Shown: in pieces, positions 55,751 to 64,000 of the stretch
Layout: each line of letters begins with the position of its first letter
Position numbering within the stretch: the stretch's first letter is position 1
Assembly: GCF_947497045.1 (NCBI RefSeq)
Contig: NZ_CANMEU010000002.1
Location: 62,001-126,000, forward strand
DNA length: 64,000 nucleotides
Source of the DNA: an uncultured Tateyamaria sp.
Lineage (GTDB): Bacteria; Pseudomonadota; Alphaproteobacteria; Rhodobacterales; Rhodobacteraceae
Reading direction: 5' to 3'
The notes under the pieces: generated by a model
What the model saw: only the letters and a program-made list of their open reading frames with translations
What the model was told of the DNA's origin: nothing
Database searches by the model: none
Position numbers and translations under genes: made by a program

Positions 55751-57445
55751 CTACTCGGCAGGTGACAATCCGTTTCCGGTTGCCCCCTCGATCTCGGAAT
55801 GGACCGAAGGCACGCCTGCCGCTTCACGCCGACTGTCATTGTAGATCGCCTTGATCAGCGCGATACACATCAACACCATCACCACCGAGAACGGCAGCGC
55901 ACCGATCACCATGGCGGTCTGGATTGCCGAGGTGCCCCCCGACAGCAGCAGACCACCCACAACAAGGCCAAGCGCCACACCCCAGAACAGGATATGTGGG
56001 CGCGCCTTGGGGCCTTCATCACCGGCTGCATTGATGGTGTTCACGATCAAAACGGCCGAGTCCGCAGATGTCACAAGGAACGTCATCAACAACACGACAA
56101 TCAGAAACGCCATGCCCCAGGCCAGGGCCTGCGCGATAGGGGCGAGCATGAACTCGGTCATGGCAAAGATCTTGTCGCCATTGGCCGCATCAAAGATGAC
56201 GCCATTGGCCCCACCGTTCAGTTCCAGATCGATGGCCGTCCCGCCTGCCCAGGCGAACCAGACAAAGCACATCAGCGCAGGCACGATCATGGCACCCAGC
56301 ACGAACTCACGGATGCTGCGACCACGCGAAATACGCGCAAGGAACAGACCCACAAACGGCGCAAAGGCGATCCACCAGGCCCAGTAGAACACAGGCCACC
56401 AGCCCTGCCACTGCGTGAGCAGGAAGGACTCGGACCCGTCAACCCCATCCGATGTGAAGACGTTGAAGCTCATCGCGGGCAGTGCAACCAGATAGTCCCA
56501 GATGCCCACGACCATCGCAGTGGCCCCAAACCATGTGGCCCCGAAGATGATGAAGAACCCAAGCAAGAAGATCGACAACACCATGTTGATGTTGGAGAGC
56601 CACTTGATGCCCTTGCCCACGCCCGACAAGGCGGACAGGGTCGACGCCCCCATGATCACAAGCAACGCAACAACGATGCCCACGAAGGTGGCACCGCCAT
56701 CTTCATTCATCAAACCGCCGATCCCGATCCGGGTCAGGCCCGCCACGAATTGCTCAACCCCGAAACCAAGGGTTTGGGCAACGCCAAGGATGGTCGCAAC
56801 CACAGCCACGATGTCAATCAAATGACCCAGCTTGCCCGAAAGCGACGACCCAAACAGCGGGGTCAGCGCCGAACGGATAGTCAGTGGCAAGCCACGACGA
56901 TAGCTGAAGAACGCCAGCGACAGGCCTGCAACCGCGTAACAGGCCCACGCGCCAAGGCCCCAATGCAGGAAAGACCACTTATAGGCCATACGCACATTGT
57001 CTGCCGTGCCACCAGTGGTGATCCCCTGAATGGTTTCCGGGTTTGACCCGAAATGCGCGACAGGTTCGGCCACAGCCCAGGTCAGCATGCCGACACCGAT
57101 CCCGGCCCCGAACATCATCGAAAACCACGAGAAGTTGCTGAATTCCGGTTTTTCGCCCGGTTGCCCAAGGTTCAACCTGCCCGCCGCCGGCCACAACGCC
57201 AGCCCCAGACACACAATGATAAAAAACGCGACAACCCAGATATACCAGGCCGCAAAGTTCGACAGAATGATGCTGTTGAAATCGCTCAATACGCGGCCCG
57301 ACTGCGTGGGCCAAAAGATGCACCACACGACAAGGACCGAGATGATCATCTTACTGACCACCGTCACGTCAACGCTGAACCCCCGATAAAAACCGTTATC
57401 TGCGGTCTTGATCGGCAGTTCCGTCAATGGAGGTTGAATAGACAT
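55751..57445 (-). CDS. BCCT family (betaine/carnitine/choline/DMSP) transporter
   Basis: A 564-aa sodium- or proton-coupled transporter with about 12 membrane helices. The substrate segment has MFGAGIGVGMLTWAVAEP, and YKWSFLHWGLGAWACYA is the BCCT hallmark. Substrates in this family are quaternary ammonium or sulfonium compounds such as glycine betaine or DMSP. Its place next to HIT, acuI and dmdA makes DMSP uptake a reasonable inference. AGGAAGG precedes the ATG at 57445; an inverted repeat lies upstream. Confidence 0.88.
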   Translation of the reverse strand: MSIQPPLTELPIKTADNGFYRGFSVDVTVVSKMIISVLVVWCIFWPTQSGRVLSDFNSIILSNFAAWYIWVVAFFIIVCLGLALWPAAGRLNLGQPGEKPEFSNFSWFSMMFGAGIGVGMLTWAVAEPVAHFGSNPETIQGITTGGTADNVRMAYKWSFLHWGLGAWACYAVAGLSLAFFSYRRGLPLTIRSALTPLFGSSLSGKLGHLIDIVAVVATILGVAQTLGFGVEQFVAGLTRIGIGGLMNEDGGATFVGIVVALLVIMGASTLSALSGVGKGIKWLSNINMVLSIFLLGFFIIFGATWFGATAMVVGIWDYLVALPAMSFNVFTSDGVDGSESFLLTQWQGWWPVFYWAWWIAFAPFVGLFLARISRGRSIREFVLGAMIVPALMCFVWFAWAGGTAIDLELNGGANGVIFDAANGDKIFAMTEFMLAPIAQALAWGMAFLIVVLLMTFLVTSADSAVLIVNTINAAGDEGPKARPHILFWGVALGLVVGGLLLSGGTSAIQTAMVIGALPFSVVMVLMCIALIKAIYNDSRREAAGVPSVHSEIEGATGNGLSPAE

Positions 57446-57706: not shown

Positions 57707-58123
57707 CTAGAGCGCGTTCGCGATCGCTTCGGCGTGGCCTTTGATAGCGTCCATATCCCCCATCTGCCCGGGTGCGCGCATTGCAACACCGTCATGGCGC
57801 GGGTGGATGTGAAAATGCAGGTGGAACACCTCCTGCCCTCCGGCTGTCTCGTTGAACTGTTGCAAGGTGATCCCGTCCGCTGCAAAGGCGGTCCTGGCCG
57901 CGTTGGCAACCTTCCTGACCGTCGCCATGACAGTGGCCAGTTGGGCGTCCGAGGCATCCAGCACGTTGCGGCAGGGCGTCTTGGGGATCACCAGACAATG
58001 CCCGTCCGTGCGCGGCATGATATCCATGAAACACAAGGTCTCATCGTCCTCATAGACCTTGAAGGCGGGGATTTCGCCGCGCAGGATCTTGGCGAATATG
58101 TTCTGGTCATCATAGGCAGTCAT
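57707..58123 (-). CDS. HIT family hydrolase
   Basis: A 138-aa HINT-type nucleotide hydrolase. IFAKILRGEIPAFKVYEDD opens it and the histidine triad reads HLHFHIHP. Such proteins hydrolyse AMP-conjugates. The ATG at 58123 has GGAAGGGG upstream. It is 89 bp downstream of acuI on the same strand and could be in the same transcript, but a link to DMSP metabolism is not evident. Confidence 0.92.
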   Translation of the reverse strand: MTAYDDQNIFAKILRGEIPAFKVYEDDETLCFMDIMPRTDGHCLVIPKTPCRNVLDASDAQLATVMATVRKVANAARTAFAADGITLQQFNETAGGQEVFHLHFHIHPRHDGVAMRAPGQMGDMDAIKGHAEAIANAL

Positions 58124-58212
58124 GGCGTGCCCCTTCCTCTTGCTCAACACTCTGACGGACGGGTTCGATGCGCGGACAAAGCGCAAAGCCCACCCGCGCC
58201 GTCAGGTCACTC

Positions 58213-59199
58213 TCAGCCATTGAGGTCCACGACCACACGGCCTTTGACCTGCCCGGCCAGAATATCCGCACCAAGCTGGGGCAGGTCTGAAAGTGTCGCG
58301 GGCTGGACCATATCCTCAAGCTTGTCCATCGGCAGGTCCTTGGCGATCCGGCCCCATGCACGCACCCGGTTGTCATAGGGCTGCATCACAGAGTCGATGC
58401 CAAGCAGGTTCACACCACGCAGCAGGAACGGAATGACGGTCGCAGGCAGTCCCGCCCCCCCGGCCAGACCCACGGCAGCCACGCTGGCACCATATTCCAT
58501 CTGGCCCAACACACGGGCCAGCATCGCGCCACCCACCGCATCAACGCAACCGCCCCATGTTTCGCCCTCAAGCGGGCGTTTCACGGTCTCGTTGATCTCT
58601 TCACGGGCCACGATCTGGCTGGCCCCAAGCGAGGTCAGATAATCGGCCGTTTCGGGCCGACCCGTAACACCCGCCACCTTGTGACCCAGATTGGCCAAGA
58701 TCGCAGTAGCAACAGACCCGACACCGCCCGCCGCACCCGTGACCAGAACAGGACCAGCCTTCAGCCCATGATCTTCCAGCGCCATCACAGCCAACATCGC
58801 AGTGAAACCAGCGGTGCCCACAGCCATGGCCTGACGGGTATCCAGGCCCTCGGGCAGCGGGACAAGCCAATCCGCCTTCACGCGGGCCTTTTGGGAATAT
58901 CCGCCCCAATGGGCCTCACCCACGCGCCAGCCGGTCAGCACAACCTTGTCGCCGGGCGCATAGCGGTCATCGTCCGACGCCTCGACCGTGCCAGCAAAAT
59001 CGATACCGGGAATGTGGGGATATTTCCGCACCAACCCACCACCGGAGCCGATGCACAACCCGTCCTTGTAGTTGACGGTCGAATACTCGACCGCAACCGT
59101 CACCTCTCCGGCAGGCAGATCATCGAGCGATATCTGGCGCACCGCAGCCGACGTCTTGCCGCTGCCTTCATCCTTGTCCACCACCAACGCATCAAACAT
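58213..59199 (-). CDS. acuI: Acrylyl-CoA reductase AcuI (MDR family)
   Basis: A 328-aa zinc-free medium-chain reductase of the YhdH/AcuI group: EYSTVNYKDGLCI, HIPGIDFAGTV, GWRVGEAHWGGYSQKARV and the NADP site VTGAAGGVGSVA. AcuI reduces acryloyl-CoA to propionyl-CoA and protects from toxic acrylate from DMSP cleavage. In Ruegeria pomeroyi acuI lies directly after dmdA, as here, which supports the name. An 84-bp gap with a repeat-like hairpin separates it from dmdA. Confidence 0.93.
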   Translation of the reverse strand: MFDALVVDKDEGSGKTSAAVRQISLDDLPAGEVTVAVEYSTVNYKDGLCIGSGGGLVRKYPHIPGIDFAGTVEASDDDRYAPGDKVVLTGWRVGEAHWGGYSQKARVKADWLVPLPEGLDTRQAMAVGTAGFTAMLAVMALEDHGLKAGPVLVTGAAGGVGSVATAILANLGHKVAGVTGRPETADYLTSLGASQIVAREEINETVKRPLEGETWGGCVDAVGGAMLARVLGQMEYGASVAAVGLAGGAGLPATVIPFLLRGVNLLGIDSVMQPYDNRVRAWGRIAKDLPMDKLEDMVQPATLSDLPQLGADILAGQVKGRVVVDLNG

Positions 59200-59229
59200 A
59201 TCGATCTCCTATCCGGGGGCTGATCCCCT

Positions 59230-59278
59230 GCTTCATCTTGCCAAACAAACTCCGGGGTCTGGGGCAGCGCCCCAGTCC
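59230..59278. repeat. REP-like intergenic hairpin between dmdA and acuI
   Basis: The stem CTGGGGC/GCCCCAG (59259-59265 with 59269-59275) extends by GG/CC after a T-T mismatch (59256-59278), and is preceded by CTTCATCTTGCCAAA. Short elements of this kind, a GC-rich hairpin joined to an AAGATGAAG-type tail, are to my recollection common between genes in Rhodobacteraceae. It may act as a transcript-stability element between dmdA and acuI. No second copy was noticed in the window. Confidence 0.5.
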
Positions 59279-59283
59279 GAGGC

Positions 59284-60390
59284 TCAAATCCAGAACACGT
59301 CCTGCACCGTTGCACGGGCCATACCATCTGGCGTTTCGACTTCCAACGGCGTGCCCGGATCCCAATGGGTCATGCGCACCATCCCGATGGCCACGTTGGT
59401 CTGAAAATCAGGCGACCAGGCCGCCGAGGTCACCTGCCCCACACGCTTGCCACCACCATAAAGCGGCCACACCCGATCACAGCCGGGCACCGGATCACCA
59501 TGGATCGCAATGGGGCGTATTTGCTGGACGGGCCCTTCCTTGGACACACGCAACAAGGCGTCCCGCCCAATACAACCAATGGCCGTCTGCGTGTCGCAAA
59601 ACCGGCCCAAGCCGCATTCATGGGGGGTGTTGTCGTCGGTCATATCATTGCCATAGGACATCAAACCGCCCTCGATCCGCTCAATCGCATTGGGACAGCC
59701 CGCACGCACGTTCAAATCCGCGCCCGCCTCAAACAGGGTATTCCACAGTGGCATCCCAATCTCGGTGCCATCGACGTAGATCTCGAACCCGCCCTGCTTG
59801 GAATACCCCGAGCGTGCAATGGCCAGATCGCGCCCTTCGAACTGGAACATGTCAAAGCGGAAAAAGCGGATGTCACGAATACGATCCCCGAACACACGGG
59901 CCATCAGATCGTCCGCCTTGGGACCCTGCACGGCCAAGGGCGAGATGTCAGGTTCATCCACCAGCACGTCCAGACGATAGCCGTTGGCAATCCCCTTGAC
60001 CCACAACAGCAGGTCGGAATCCGCGATGGAGATCCACCACCGATCCTCGGACAGTTTGACCGCCACGGGGTCATTCAACATGCCGCCCGTCTCGTCCACG
60101 ATGGGCACGTAATAACACTGGCCCGGCAACATCCGACGCAAATCGCGCGGGGTGAGCATCTGCATCAGGCGCCCCGCATCCGGTCCGCGCAGTTCCACCT
60201 GTCGCTCGACCGCCACATCCCAGACCTGCACATGGTCCTTGAGGTGGCGGTAGTCCGCCTCGACGCTGTCAAAAACGGTTGGCAGCAACATGCGGTTGTA
60301 AACGGTGTAGGCCTTGACGCCTGCCGCCTCAACGCCAGCGGAAAACGGAGTACGGCGCAGCCGACGCGAAGGGGATATGACTGCCATCAT
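59284..60390 (-). CDS. dmdA: Dimethylsulfoniopropionate demethylase DmdA
   Basis: A 368-aa GcvT-fold, tetrahydrofolate-dependent enzyme that demethylates DMSP to methylmercaptopropionate and makes 5-methyl-THF. It begins SPSRRLRRTPFS with GVEAAGVKAYTVYN, as in Roseobacter DmdA rather than glycine-cleavage T protein or sarcosine dehydrogenase; QCYYVPIVDETGGMLNDP, FQFEGRDLAIARSGYSKQGGFEIYV (SGYSKQGG part) and LMSYGNDMT follow. The first ATG overlaps the DinB stop by 4 nt and a second ATG follows at once with better spacing from GAGGA. It is the last gene of a coupled four-gene run. Confidence 0.95.
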   Translation of the reverse strand: MMAVISPSRRLRRTPFSAGVEAAGVKAYTVYNRMLLPTVFDSVEADYRHLKDHVQVWDVAVERQVELRGPDAGRLMQMLTPRDLRRMLPGQCYYVPIVDETGGMLNDPVAVKLSEDRWWISIADSDLLLWVKGIANGYRLDVLVDEPDISPLAVQGPKADDLMARVFGDRIRDIRFFRFDMFQFEGRDLAIARSGYSKQGGFEIYVDGTEIGMPLWNTLFEAGADLNVRAGCPNAIERIEGGLMSYGNDMTDDNTPHECGLGRFCDTQTAIGCIGRDALLRVSKEGPVQQIRPIAIHGDPVPGCDRVWPLYGGGKRVGQVTSAAWSPDFQTNVAIGMVRMTHWDPGTPLEVETPDGMARATVQDVFWI

Positions 60391-60896
60391 TCATCCTCGG
60401 GCATAAAGACCATGTCACTGACCGGAGCCTCGCGCCCGGCGGCGGTCATCATCGCGTGCACCTGGCCGCGATGATGGATCTGGTGGTTGAAAAAATGGAC
60501 AACGCAATTGGCCAGAGGTTGTTGAAAGTCGCGCTTTAACGTCCCGGAATACCACGCCAATTCCCCTTTGAGATCGAGCGTGCGCAGCGTGTCCGCCCAC
60601 ATGCGAATCGCCCCGTCCAGACGGAACCGCTCAGCACTCCACACCGCGAAGGTCGGGGTGAACTCGGCATGTTTGGCGGGCGGCACGTCCGGGGGCGCGA
60701 TGCGCGGCTCAAACCGGTTCATCCACAGGGTATCGCCCCACAGGATATGGTTCAGTGTCGCCATGATCGAGCCAAAGAAGGCGCCACGATCCTTGCGCAA
60801 GTCGGCATCTGGCATGTCGCTCAGCAGCGTGGTCAACTGGCGGTTTTGCCACGCGTTGTACCGGGCCATCGAACGGACATACCCTGCCTCGATCAC
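60387..60896 (-). CDS. DinB family metal-dependent protein
   Basis: A 169-aa four-helix DinB-like protein. The three metal-binding His are in TLNHILWGD and NHQIHHRGQVH (HxxxHRGQ). The fold includes thiol-dependent S-transferases and hydrolases. It is translationally coupled to dmdA downstream and DUF1326 upstream (ATGA overlaps both sides), so it probably shares the pathway. A thiol- or metal-linked role in methylated-sulfur metabolism is inference only. Confidence 0.88.
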   Translation of the reverse strand: MIEAGYVRSMARYNAWQNRQLTTLLSDMPDADLRKDRGAFFGSIMATLNHILWGDTLWMNRFEPRIAPPDVPPAKHAEFTPTFAVWSAERFRLDGAIRMWADTLRTLDLKGELAWYSGTLKRDFQQPLANCVVHFFNHQIHHRGQVHAMMTAAGREAPVSDMVFMPEDE

Positions 60897-61600
60897 GGCT
60901 TGGGGCCTTTCCAGTCAATCGGGCAGATCTCAGCCGATTTGCCGCCAAAGTCCCAGATGCGCCCGTAATCGCGCACTTTCGATTTGGTGCCGCGTGCGGC
61001 GATGATGTCAGGCCCCATCCAGTATTTGGAGTTGGAGATGACAACCGGATGGTCCGCATCCTTGCCGTCGATCATCTCGATCTCGCCCTGGATCTTGCGC
61101 CCGATATAAAGGCCGCGCTTTTTGCCCTCGCGCACGATCTCGACCTTCTCACGCTCGGCTCCCACAATGTCGCTGACCAGCATCGTGAACAGCCCCGTGG
61201 TGCCGCCCGCCGCGCCCGAAAATATCTGCAAAAGCCCGTTATACGCCTTGCCGCTTGCGCGTTCATCCACATAAGCCGCCACGCGCCAGCCGCCCTCAGC
61301 CATGCGTCCGGGGATGTCGACCATCAGCCCCACGTTCAGCCCCGACAGGTCCTCGCCCTCGTAATGACCTTCGTCGATGGCGATGGCCATCCATGCGTGG
61401 CAGTGCCCTTCGGTGGGCGGATGCGCGCCAAGCGAGACGACGCAGGGACAGAACAACTCGCACGAGCAGTTTAGAAACAGCTCGCCCTTGATCGCCCATT
61501 CGGTTGGGGTCATCTGACGGCGGCCCGGATTGGGCATCCGGCTGTCGATACGTTGGCTGACCGGCAGCTTGTCCGCGTCAGCGCGTCGTTTTACGGCCAT
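60893..61600 (-). CDS. DUF1326 cysteine-rich protein
   Basis: A 235-aa protein of the DUF1326 family. The hallmark is a four-cysteine motif in LNCSCELFCPCVVS (Cys45, Cys47, Cys51, Cys53) followed by HCHAW, which could bind a soft metal such as copper. Function is unknown. GGAGG lies before the ATG at 61600. It follows DUF2182 by 1 nt and overlaps DinB by ATGA. Confidence 0.9.
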   Translation of the reverse strand: MAVKRRADADKLPVSQRIDSRMPNPGRRQMTPTEWAIKGELFLNCSCELFCPCVVSLGAHPPTEGHCHAWMAIAIDEGHYEGEDLSGLNVGLMVDIPGRMAEGGWRVAAYVDERASGKAYNGLLQIFSGAAGGTTGLFTMLVSDIVGAEREKVEIVREGKKRGLYIGRKIQGEIEMIDGKDADHPVVISNSKYWMGPDIIAARGTKSKVRDYGRIWDFGGKSAEICPIDWKGPKP

Positions 61601-61601
61601 C

Positions 61602-62402
61602 TCATAGTCCTCCGATATTTGGGGCGATAAAGGGTTGGGCCAGCACCGCCAGCCCGGCGGCAATCAGGATCGCCCCCATGGGTTTGGTGACAACATGCCC
61701 GATCTGCGGCAGTTTTTCGAGCACCATGAACAGCGTCGCAAGGCCCATCCAGGCCAGACTCATCACGCCGCCCACGAACCCGAGCGCCATAAAGCCCCAG
61801 CAACAGCCCACGCAGAACGCACCAAGGCCAAGGCCCATACGCGCGCCTCCCACCACTCCGGTGCGCCAATGGCCCAGAAAATACATCATCGGGGAATGGC
61901 AGACGCCGTGGCACACCTCTTTGGCACGACTGAATTGAAACGCGCCGACGACCAGCAGCAGAAATCCCGCAAAAGTGGAGGTTTTCGAGATGCCGAGCAT
62001 GTCGATCACCCCGCCATAAAGCAGCGCCAGTTGCACCCCCGCGATCAGCGCGGCAAAGGCGACCCAGACGACCAGATATCCAAGCACCACACCCAGCCAC
62101 CCCGCACGCGTCCCCGTGGCCGATACCATCAGATCCTCATAGGCGCGCAAGGTCGGCACAAGCGTAGGCAGCATCATCGCCGCCATCATAATCGCCCACA
62201 TCGCAAACAGCGGGCCAAAATTCGCCATCGGCATATACATCGGCATGTGCGGGTCCATCGCGGCCATGCGCGCACCCATCTCGCCGGGCCGCCCAAGCAG
62301 GTCCAGATCCATGTCCATCGACATGGCGTACATCATCCACCACGCCGCCAGAATGGCCCCGAAAAACCCCAGCCACAGGGTCGAGCGAACAAGATGCGGC
62401 AT
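61602..62402 (-). CDS. DUF2182 metal-binding-type membrane protein
   Basis: A 266-aa polytopic protein (about seven helices) of the DUF2182 family. Met-rich stretches around residues 23-30, 46-59 and 72-77 (MPMYMPMANFG, IMMAAMMLP), plus CHGVCHS at 164-170 and CVGCCWG at 197-203, look like Cu(I)-type ligands. GGGAGGA precedes the ATG at 62402. It is the first gene of the run ending in dmdA, and its partner DUF1326 is next. Transport or insertion of copper is inference. Confidence 0.9.
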   Translation of the reverse strand: MPHLVRSTLWLGFFGAILAAWWMMYAMSMDMDLDLLGRPGEMGARMAAMDPHMPMYMPMANFGPLFAMWAIMMAAMMLPTLVPTLRAYEDLMVSATGTRAGWLGVVLGYLVVWVAFAALIAGVQLALLYGGVIDMLGISKTSTFAGFLLLVVGAFQFSRAKEVCHGVCHSPMMYFLGHWRTGVVGGARMGLGLGAFCVGCCWGFMALGFVGGVMSLAWMGLATLFMVLEKLPQIGHVVTKPMGAILIAAGLAVLAQPFIAPNIGGL

Positions 62403-62433
62403 ATGTCCTCCCAAGGATGCTGCGACTCAATGC

Positions 62434-62472
62434 TTGCCAGATTAAATGTCAGACATTAAAATGCCAGACAAT
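62434..62472. promoter_or_regulatory. gntR promoter with FadR-type operator, shared with the divergent DUF2182 operon
   Basis: TTGCCA (62434-62439), a 17-nt spacer and TAAAAT (62457-62462) form a near-consensus sigma-70 promoter for gntR. In the spacer lies AATGTC-A-GACATT (62445-62457), a perfect palindrome with the GTCnGAC core of FadR-subfamily operators; a degenerate copy AATGCCAGACAATT follows at 62460-62473. This placement predicts autorepression and control of the divergent operon. Confidence 0.75.
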
Positions 62473-62486
62473 TAAAAAGTGACCAG

Positions 62487-63260
62487 ATGAAAATTGATCC
62501 TGACAGCAGCGCCGACTTTTCCGCCCAGATTGCCAAGGCGATCCGGGATGCGATTGTGGCAGGTGATCTGATCGTGGATCAACGTCTGCCGAGCGAGGCG
62601 GAACTGGCCGATCAATTCGACGTCTCGCGCCCCACCGTGCGCGAGGCCCTCAAGCGGCTGGCCGCGCAATCCCTGATCCGCACGCAGCGTGGGGCCACGG
62701 GCGGAGCCTTCGTGAACCGGCTTCGGTTTGAGGATGCCTATGCCCAGGCGGTCACCACCTCGACGCTGTTGTTGTCCATGAACGCGGTCAGTTTCGATGT
62801 GGCCTGTGAGGCGCGCTATGCGCTTGAACGGGCCTGTGCGCCTTTGTCAGCCACCCGGCGCACGCCTGATCATCTGGCGACTATGCGCGCCGAAATCACC
62901 CGCCAATCCGAACCCGGGCTGAGTGACGAGGCGTTTTGCGCATCTGATGTCACGTTTCACCGCGCGCTGGTGGATGCGGCCGGCAATCCGATGCTGAGCT
63001 ATCAACTGGCCGGAGCGGTCGAGGCGATGCAGCCTCTGATGAACATGATCACCTTCACCGCCCGCTCGCGCGAGCGCATCGTGATGCTGCATCAGAACAT
63101 GGTCAGCACGCTTGAAGCGCGCGATGCCTTGGGCACCGAAGCGGCCCTTGCCGCGCTTGAAAGTTATACCCGTGATCTCGGTCACACGGTGGTGGCCGAA
63201 CGCCAGCAGCGTGACCGCCCCACCAAAGGTGCAAAGACCAAGGAGCAGAGTTCAGCCTGA
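62487..63260 (+). CDS. GntR family regulator, FadR subfamily
   Basis: A 257-aa regulator. The winged helix is near residues 10-75 (RLPSEAELADQFDVSRPTVREALKRL, recognised by LPSEAELA and VSRPTVREAL), followed by the all-helical FCD effector domain (DVTFHRALVDAAGN with metal-type His/Asp). It lies between the divergent DUF2182-DUF1326-DinB-dmdA run and the methanethiol oxidase gene, and the operator in its promoter suggests it controls both. The ligand could be a DMSP-derived compound such as acrylate or methylmercaptopropionate, not shown by sequence. Confidence 0.92.
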   Translation: MKIDPDSSADFSAQIAKAIRDAIVAGDLIVDQRLPSEAELADQFDVSRPTVREALKRLAAQSLIRTQRGATGGAFVNRLRFEDAYAQAVTTSTLLLSMNAVSFDVACEARYALERACAPLSATRRTPDHLATMRAEITRQSEPGLSDEAFCASDVTFHRALVDAAGNPMLSYQLAGAVEAMQPLMNMITFTARSRERIVMLHQNMVSTLEARDALGTEAALAALESYTRDLGHTVVAERQQRDRPTKGAKTKEQSSA

Positions 63261-63312
63261 CCTCGGCATGAATAAGCAGGGGCAGGCAAATCTAGACGTC
63301 AGGGAGGACGCT

Positions 63313-64000
63313 ATGAATTTGAGACCAGACCCCACATTTCACCCAAGCCCCAAAATGGCCATGGAGGCCCCGGTCGAGACCTTGGCATTTACGCTGATGC
63401 TCAGCCCCGATGGCACCAAACCCGATGGGCTGGCCGTTGTCGATGTTGACCCGAAATCAGACAGTTACGGGCAGATCGTGCACGAACTCTATGTGCCCAA
63501 CCTCGGCGACGAATTTCACCACTTCGGCTGGAACGCCTGTTCTTCGTCGCTTTCGCCGCTGACGGGCCATGCCTTTCTCGAACGGCGTTACCTGATCATT
63601 CCGGGCATCCGGTCCTCGCGCATCTACATCATCGACGTGAAGGACCCGCGCGATGCCAAGATCCACAAGATCATCGAACCCGAAGAGTTGATGGCCAAGA
63701 CGGGTTATTCCCGCCCCCACACGATCCATTGCGGCCCCGAAGGCATCTATGTCTCGACCCTTGGCGGTGGTGGCGCGGATGGCACTGACGGCCCGCCCGG
63801 CATCTTCATCATGGATTGTCAGACATTTGAAATCCAGGGCCGCTACGAGATGGATCGCGGCATTCAGGACAAGCATTATGATTTCTGGTGGAACCTGCCG
63901 CGCGATTACATGGTGAGTTCCGAATGGGGTCTGCCGCCGCAATTCGAAAACGGTGTGGTGGCCGAGGATTTGCTCTCCAACAAGTACGGGCACACGATCC
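63313..64000 (+). CDS. Selenium-binding protein / methanethiol oxidase, 3' end outside the window
   Basis: The first 229 codons of a SBP56-family beta-propeller enzyme. FHHFGWNACSSSLS corresponds to the selenium-binding Cys region of SELENBP1 (Cys at about residue 70), and RPHTIHCGPEGIYVSTLG and KHYDFWWN follow. Bacterial members (MtoX) oxidise methanethiol to formaldehyde, sulfide and hydrogen peroxide and need copper. AGGGAGGA precedes the ATG, 52 bp after gntR, so both are probably one transcript. It lies opposite the dmdA operon, whose pathway yields methanethiol. Confidence 0.85.
   Translation, partial: MNLRPDPTFHPSPKMAMEAPVETLAFTLMLSPDGTKPDGLAVVDVDPKSDSYGQIVHELYVPNLGDEFHHFGWNACSSSLSPLTGHAFLERRYLIIPGIRSSRIYIIDVKDPRDAKIHKIIEPEELMAKTGYSRPHTIHCGPEGIYVSTLGGGGADGTDGPPGIFIMDCQTFEIQGRYEMDRGIQDKHYDFWWNLPRDYMVSSEWGLPPQFENGVVAEDLLSNKYGHTI

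Follow-up and report, generated by a model that had tools for sequence, protein, structure and literature searches.

The locus described here raises the question of why the gene for a dimethylsulfoniopropionate (DMSP) demethylase, dmdA, should stand behind genes for a DUF2182 and a DUF1326 protein, divergently from a GntR-type regulator and an SBP56-family gene. It lies at the end of a 64,000-nucleotide stretch of an uncultured Tateyamaria sp. of the Rhodobacteraceae (assembly GCF_947497045.1, contig NZ_CANMEU010000002.1, positions 62,001 to 126,000), which as a whole is called the window below. The gene set GntR / DUF2182-DUF1326-(DinB)-DmdA-AcuI is conserved, and the reading preferred here, to which slightly less than an even chance is given, is that of a GntR-linked operon for DMSP demethylation and acrylate detoxification with a built-in two-protein module that probably handles Cu(I), present in 37 of 49 dmdA genomes. 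The members of the operon and its regulatory region are as follows.

61602..62402, minus strand: DUF2182 / PpoB2-family membrane protein (PF09948); a TTG start at 62414 is possible too
60893..61600, minus strand: DUF1326 protein with the cysteine cluster C45 C47 C51 C53 C67
60387..60896, minus strand: DinB-family protein with a GTG start (PF05163, 82.4 bits)
59284..60390, minus strand: dmdA, DMSP demethylase (NF009133; structure 3tfh, E 3e-113)
58213..59199, minus strand: acuI, acryloyl-CoA reductase (structures 5gxe/5gxf, E about 7e-188; TIGR02823)
62446..62456, no strand: operator-like palindrome ATGTCAGACAT, with a second copy of one mismatch at 62461-62471
62487..63260, plus strand: divergent GntR/FCD regulator (PF00392 and PF07729, above cut-off)

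The genes named by an earlier sequence-only reading of the window (DmdA, DinB, DUF1326, DUF2182, GntR and SBP56) were all confirmed by family scores, as was the tight coupling it had reported: open reading frame coordinates and the sequence give a gap of 1 nt between DUF2182 and DUF1326 and overlaps of 4 nt at both DUF1326/DinB and DinB/DmdA. The operon as titled in that reading omitted AcuI, whose gene lies 84 nt downstream of dmdA and belongs to the conserved block, and the position given as the start of the locus, 57707, is where a HIT-family gene ends. By family, the dmdA product is a genuine DMSP demethylase, scoring 699.3 bits against the equivalog NF009133 (cut-off 410); its closest solved structure is 3tfh, that of Pelagibacter DmdA (382 bits, next match 124 bits), so that it is far nearer DmdA than GcvT. 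The closest structures of AcuI, 5gxe/5gxf, matched over the full length at 627 bits (next 358), and the protein passed the wider acrylyl-CoA reductase family TIGR02823 (439.9 bits, cut-off 297.25), falling just short of the equivalog NF051456 (408.4 bits, cut-off 440). The DinB protein keeps His50, His138 and His142, presumably the set expected for a metal site in this fold, in 99-100% of 92 sequences, and may be a thiol-dependent enzyme of the same pathway.

Conservation was examined in 120 Rhodobacteraceae genomes from 120 genera, the source genome of the window among them; these genera are not independent, and the survey statistics ignore phylogeny. A profile survey placed dmdA above cut-off in 49 genomes (54 copies), DUF1326 in 57, PpoB2/DUF2182 in 59 and SBP56 in 42, the last tally taking in fragments and every SBP56 type. 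Same-strand DUF1326 and DUF2182 genes were found within 5 kb of 37 of the 54 dmdA copies, in 37 of the 49 dmdA genomes, with order and strand constant over these 37, each of a different genus. Both dmdA and DUF1326 occurred in 39 genomes, dmdA only in 10, DUF1326 only in 18 and neither in 53 (Fisher p 4e-9, without phylogenetic correction), and DUF2182 lay within 1.5 kb of 65 of 66 DUF1326 genes. The co-occurrence that the sequence-only reading had put forward as its check thus gave a conserved neighbourhood, and the case for a conserved operon has become stronger than that reading had the means to show.

The same picture was obtained from 80 named DUF1326 loci, the best among 355 relatives and a set dominated by close ones. 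Within 5 kb of DUF1326, DUF2182 was present in 80, AcuI in 77, GntR in 76, DmdA in 75 (one, L117, a mere remnant and two truncated at a contig end) and DinB in 66. The twelve nearest loci were all from Tateyamaria, 93-96% identical in DUF1326 and of the same gene order, with SBP56 in 11. Plasmid pMaD9 of Marinovum algicola carries GntR, DUF2182, DUF1326, an acyl-CoA synthetase, dmdA, acuI, SBP56 and a membrane protein in a single run. Its DUF genes are annotated as 'Transmembrane protein involved in DMSP breakdown' and 'protein involved in DMSP breakdown', wording which suggests that the annotators had already seen a link to DMSP; published evidence behind this annotation was not found.

The operon and the regulator share an intergenic region in which a short palindrome recurs. 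Among 84 distinct GntR/operon intergenic regions, where close relatives are likewise over-represented, TGTCnGACA was found in 73 (mean of 0.1 in plain base shuffles) and the relaxed form TGYCnGRCA in 82 (mean of 0.4), the relaxed form being missing from two (L036 and L167). The palindrome fits a putative GntR operator serving both directions. A further perfect copy, TTGTCAGACAT, lies within the SBP56 coding region at 63816-63826. An extension of the GntR regulon to copper genes was considered, as one of seven palindromes in the genome (against 2 in the control) precedes a DUF2282/MNIO operon, presumably bufferin-like (G000:C4:80010). The full site WTGTCnGACAW was found at none of 30 other MNIO loci (30 of 85 MNIO genomes examined), with the bare TGTCnGACA core at one, and the palindrome at this operon was therefore treated as a chance occurrence.

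The nature of the DUF2182-DUF1326 pair is the point on which the copper reading turns. The sequence-only reading had described the proteins between DmdA and GntR as poorly understood, which was too bleak for DUF2182: it matches PF09948, named in Pfam as PpoB2, copper chaperone, at 195.7 bits (cut-off 28.7). In the conservation sets, where the query is counted in and some duplicate loci are left in (distinct sequences among all matches: 125 of 135 for DUF1326 and 133 of 134 for DUF2182), type 1 denotes the DUF2182-DUF1326 order with a DUF1326 at least 46% identical to that of the window. DUF2182 residues M72, M76, M80, M81, C168 and C172 were kept in 100% of 102 type-1 sequences and C201, C204, C205 and M209 in 98-99%, while all ten were kept in 100% of 17 type-2 sequences. 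In DUF1326, which is presumed to be cytosolic, the five cysteines C45, C47, C51, C53 and C67 are invariant. Copper transfer has been reported as the role of PpoB2 in Marinomonas mediterranea, which is encoded in the PpoB1-PpoB2 tyrosinase operon and described in PMC2855505 as the first member of its group; common to that operon and the window is a PpoB2-family protein near a putative copper enzyme, whereas the partner in the window is DUF1326.

A copper role of the pair, read from these residues and families, accounts best for the present evidence, with a probability slightly below one half. DUF2182 would take up or relay Cu(I), and DUF1326 would buffer it or pass it on, so that copper enzymes could stay functional while two products arise from the substrates of the pathway: methanethiol, a thiol that binds copper, and acryloyl-CoA, which poisons thiols. 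The divergent direction in Tateyamaria adds a methanethiol oxidase (MTO) of the type of RlMTO, with the membrane protein that follows it.

63313..64000, plus strand: SBP56-family methanethiol oxidase, RlMTO type, ending at the equivalent of 64713 (PF05694, 575 bits)
L002:10727-11380, just past the end of the window: 217-aa membrane protein, following SBP56 by 12 nt

The SBP56 gene is interrupted by the end of the window and is completed on the same contig. The gap from gntR to SBP56 is 52 nt and that from SBP56 to the membrane protein gene 12 nt; these short distances suggest that the three may form a single transcript. That the divergent gene is of the methanethiol oxidase type, as the sequence-only reading had it, was borne out, but the MtoX family label was not, since the protein scored 119 bits against the MtoX equivalog NF052453 (cut-off 650). 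A hydropathy scan gave no hydrophobic N-terminal segment, unlike what is expected of the exported MtoX, and MtoX above cut-off was uncommon, with 3 of the 120 Rhodobacteraceae genomes carrying it. The type was instead indicated by Cys76, Cys140 and Cys456 in the motifs GWNACS, HTIHC and GGDCS, which RlMTO shares in number and motif. Sections of PMC10936201 describe two clusters of Rhodobacterales MTOs, most of cluster 1 having three cysteines in GWNACS, HTV/IHC and GGDCS/T, and report that RlMTO (cluster 1) was assayed and that C76, C140 or C456 mutants lost most of the activity. By family type, the window protein is therefore taken as an RlMTO-type methanethiol oxidase. Its His69, His70, His136 and His447 occupy the alignment columns of MtoX residues 88, 89, 141 and 424, which correspond to putative copper ligands of RpMTO in the same sections; the His69, His70 and His447 columns were kept in 11 of 11 sequences compared and His136 in 10 of 11. 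Because these proposed ligands are retained, the Tateyamaria SBP56 protein is a plausible local client of the DUF2182-DUF1326 pair.

A homologue of the 217-aa membrane protein followed all 46 distinct SBP56 genes with at least 500 bits to the window protein and at least 800 bp downstream, and none of the 15 distinct genes of other SBP56 types within the fetched stretch (64 of 64 and 0 of 21, respectively, with duplicates included). It matched no Pfam or NCBIfam family, and no PDB match at E <=0.001 was found for its predicted structure (pLDDT, the predicted local distance difference test score, 74.8); His20, His55, His123 and His166 are invariant in 26 sequences, and invariant Met residues occur as well. 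The facing oxidase is real in type and local to the genus. Three of the 49 dmdA genomes had SBP56 no more than 10 kb from dmdA, two of them in the arrangement of the window; within 5 kb of DUF1326 it was present in 15 of the 80 named loci, all from Tateyamaria (15 of the 16 Tateyamaria loci). The proposal that entry and exit of the pathway in one divergent locus form a general system did not hold at these frequencies.

Several observations weigh against the copper reading and give substance to its rivals. In sections of PMC10936201, copper is not reported for cluster-1 MTOs, and of the two tryptophans of the proposed tryptophan tryptophylquinone (TTQ) cofactor in MtoX, Trp386 aligns with SBP56 Trp406 (10 of 11 sequences) while the Trp223 column holds proline 208, so that retention of both was rejected and the cofactor may differ. 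In 12 of the 49 dmdA genomes no pair adjoins the gene, and some of these have GntR-dmdA-acuI alone (G038 and G086, for example). Nor was the linked pair a predictor of SBP56: the latter was present in 24 of the 37 dmdA genomes that have the pair and in 7 of the 12 that do not (p 0.74). The best fold match of DUF1326 is to an enzyme superfamily rather than to a chaperone. Furthermore, 15 type-1 pair loci have no intact dmdA beside them, one of these (G014) with a broken dmdA; 13 are in genomes without dmdA above cut-off, and G001 and G090 have dmdA elsewhere. In 11 of the 15, acuI lies within about 2 kb, and of the remaining four, two are at a contig edge and two are without acuI (G090, G092). 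The pair therefore outlives dmdA and keeps to acuI no less closely, a pattern that speaks for a role tied to acrylate: DUF1326 would be an acetoacetate-decarboxylase-fold enzyme, or a thiol-rich protein, acting on or protecting from metabolites derived from acryloyl-CoA, with AcuI rather than the methanethiol branch as its true partner. The acetoacetate decarboxylase superfamily has a catalytic Schiff-base lysine, whereas the invariant positions of DUF1326 are the five cysteines and structural residues, and no lysine is among its invariant or near-invariant columns in 53 sequences (K169 reaches at least 95% within type 1). A Schiff-base mechanism would accordingly not be family-wide, the more distant DUF1326-DUF2182 pairs are found apart from acuI, and service to the acrylate branch is judged doubtful. 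The idea that a cupin DMSP lyase (PF16867) takes the partner role in the absence of dmdA was rejected, with the lyase above cut-off in 4 of the 13 type-1-pair genomes without dmdA versus 49 of 120 overall.

The same distant pairs bear on the possibility that the two genes serve general copper or metal homeostasis and sit in the operon with no role in DMSP metabolism, as their neighbours were mixed (10 proteins, 6 loci) and no client enzyme was seen near them; DUF1326 also occurs outside the Rhodobacteraceae, in 19 of the 235 genomes listed from other families, and the failure of the linked pair to predict SBP56 points the same way. However, constant order and strand in the dmdA genomes and a relaxed palindrome in nearly all regions are tighter than would be expected of mere passengers, and this explanation is considered improbable. 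It is more improbable still that SBP56 is no methanethiol oxidase in vivo and that its position is incidental to the genus. Its score below the MtoX equivalog cut-off, its rarity near dmdA, the unaligned TTQ tryptophan and the scarcity of the relaxed palindrome upstream of RlMTO-type SBP56 genes in other genomes (4 of 29 regions, each of 400 bp; 2 of the 4 exact) would agree with such a view, which is opposed by the three cysteines needed by RlMTO at identical residue numbers and motifs and by retention in nearly all Tateyamaria loci. The copper reading can also be extended, with considerably more reserve, to a dedicated cytosolic copper line (PpoB2-type membrane protein plus five-cysteine DUF1326) in most roseobacter DMSP-demethylation operons. 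Such a line would supply or protect copper during the formation of methanethiol and acryloyl-CoA, so that the copper supply would have a say in what becomes of the sulfur of DMSP, and in Tateyamaria it would feed an RlMTO-type oxidase with an undescribed, constant membrane partner; this extension is tentative, and well short of an even chance is given to it.

The dmdA-acuI core of the window is already known, and the DUF2182-DUF1326 pair in a DMSP operon appears to be new. Todd et al. (2012), in the portions of PMC3338564 covered, report that acuI stands next after dmdA, that acrylate and DMSP induce them in Ruegeria pomeroyi, and that the two are adjacent in 24 of 26 dmdA roseobacters. The words GntR, hypothetical and unknown function are absent from its main text, while the operon of the window includes GntR and the DUF genes. 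The sequence-only reading knew of no described system with this gene set; no paper linking DUF2182 or DUF1326 with dmdA was found in a search mostly outside subscription journals. Similarly, the main text of PMC10936201 does not contain the words operon, GntR, DUF or gene cluster, whereas the SBP56 gene of the window faces dmdA and has a conserved membrane partner. Eyice et al. (PMC5739008, in part) describe mtoX with a SCO1/SenC copper chaperone and MauG, induced by methanethiol; the SBP56 superfamily, the alignment of the four putative copper-ligand histidines and a copper-chaperone gene nearby are common to that system and the window. In contrast, none of the ten window-locus genes scanned is SCO1 or MauG, and the twin-arginine-like N-terminus of the MtoX examples L190-L192 (two read from an internal Met) is lacking in the window protein. 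Two additional SBP family members in Ruegeria are mentioned in PMC7157515, as far as its excerpted text goes.

Downstream of the conserved block, two neighbours of variable association complete the minus-strand order, which in the direction of transcription is DUF2182, DUF1326, DinB, DmdA, AcuI, HIT and BCCT.

57707..58126, minus strand: HIT-family protein, downstream neighbour (PF01230)
55751..57445, minus strand: BCCT-family transporter (PF02028, 497 bits)

Within 5 kb, the HIT gene was present in 30 and the BCCT gene in 48 of the 80 named loci. The BCCT protein, which fell short of the cut-offs set in NCBIfam for the named BCCT families, is a candidate importer of DMSP or betaine. A promoter and terminator scan was uninformative, with 5 and 10 sites versus 3.6 and 9.7 in shuffles. 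An acyl-CoA synthetase gene directly precedes dmdA in L003, L023, L027, L038 and L039 and is a possible alternative ligase. The Marinovum ligase beside dmdA was rejected as DmdB (298.6 bits, cut-off 822) and is only an acyl-CoA synthetase of subfamily NF006020; the L003 synthetase and the relative in the window's own genome both match NF006020 rather than the DmdB equivalog. That genome also has a second DMSP-related island (G000:C10:28931-32904). There, a cupin DMSP lyase (121 bits) and an acyl-CoA synthetase are encoded some 2 kb apart, the synthetase sharing 53% identity with the enzyme adjacent to dmdA in Marinovum. DmdA-like genes of the GcvT family below the DmdA cut-off were seen at most 10 kb from SBP56 in G006:C48, G113:C17, G062:C10, G036:C40, G032:C71 and G079:C60.

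Among marine sulfur compounds DMSP is a major one, and portions of PMC3338564 assign to demethylation the main share of its global catabolic flux. If the copper reading is true, copper availability could be tested as a control on what becomes of DMSP sulfur, whether retention, oxidation or release, and DUF1326 and the 217-aa MTO partner, both of uncharacterised families, would gain a concrete biological setting.

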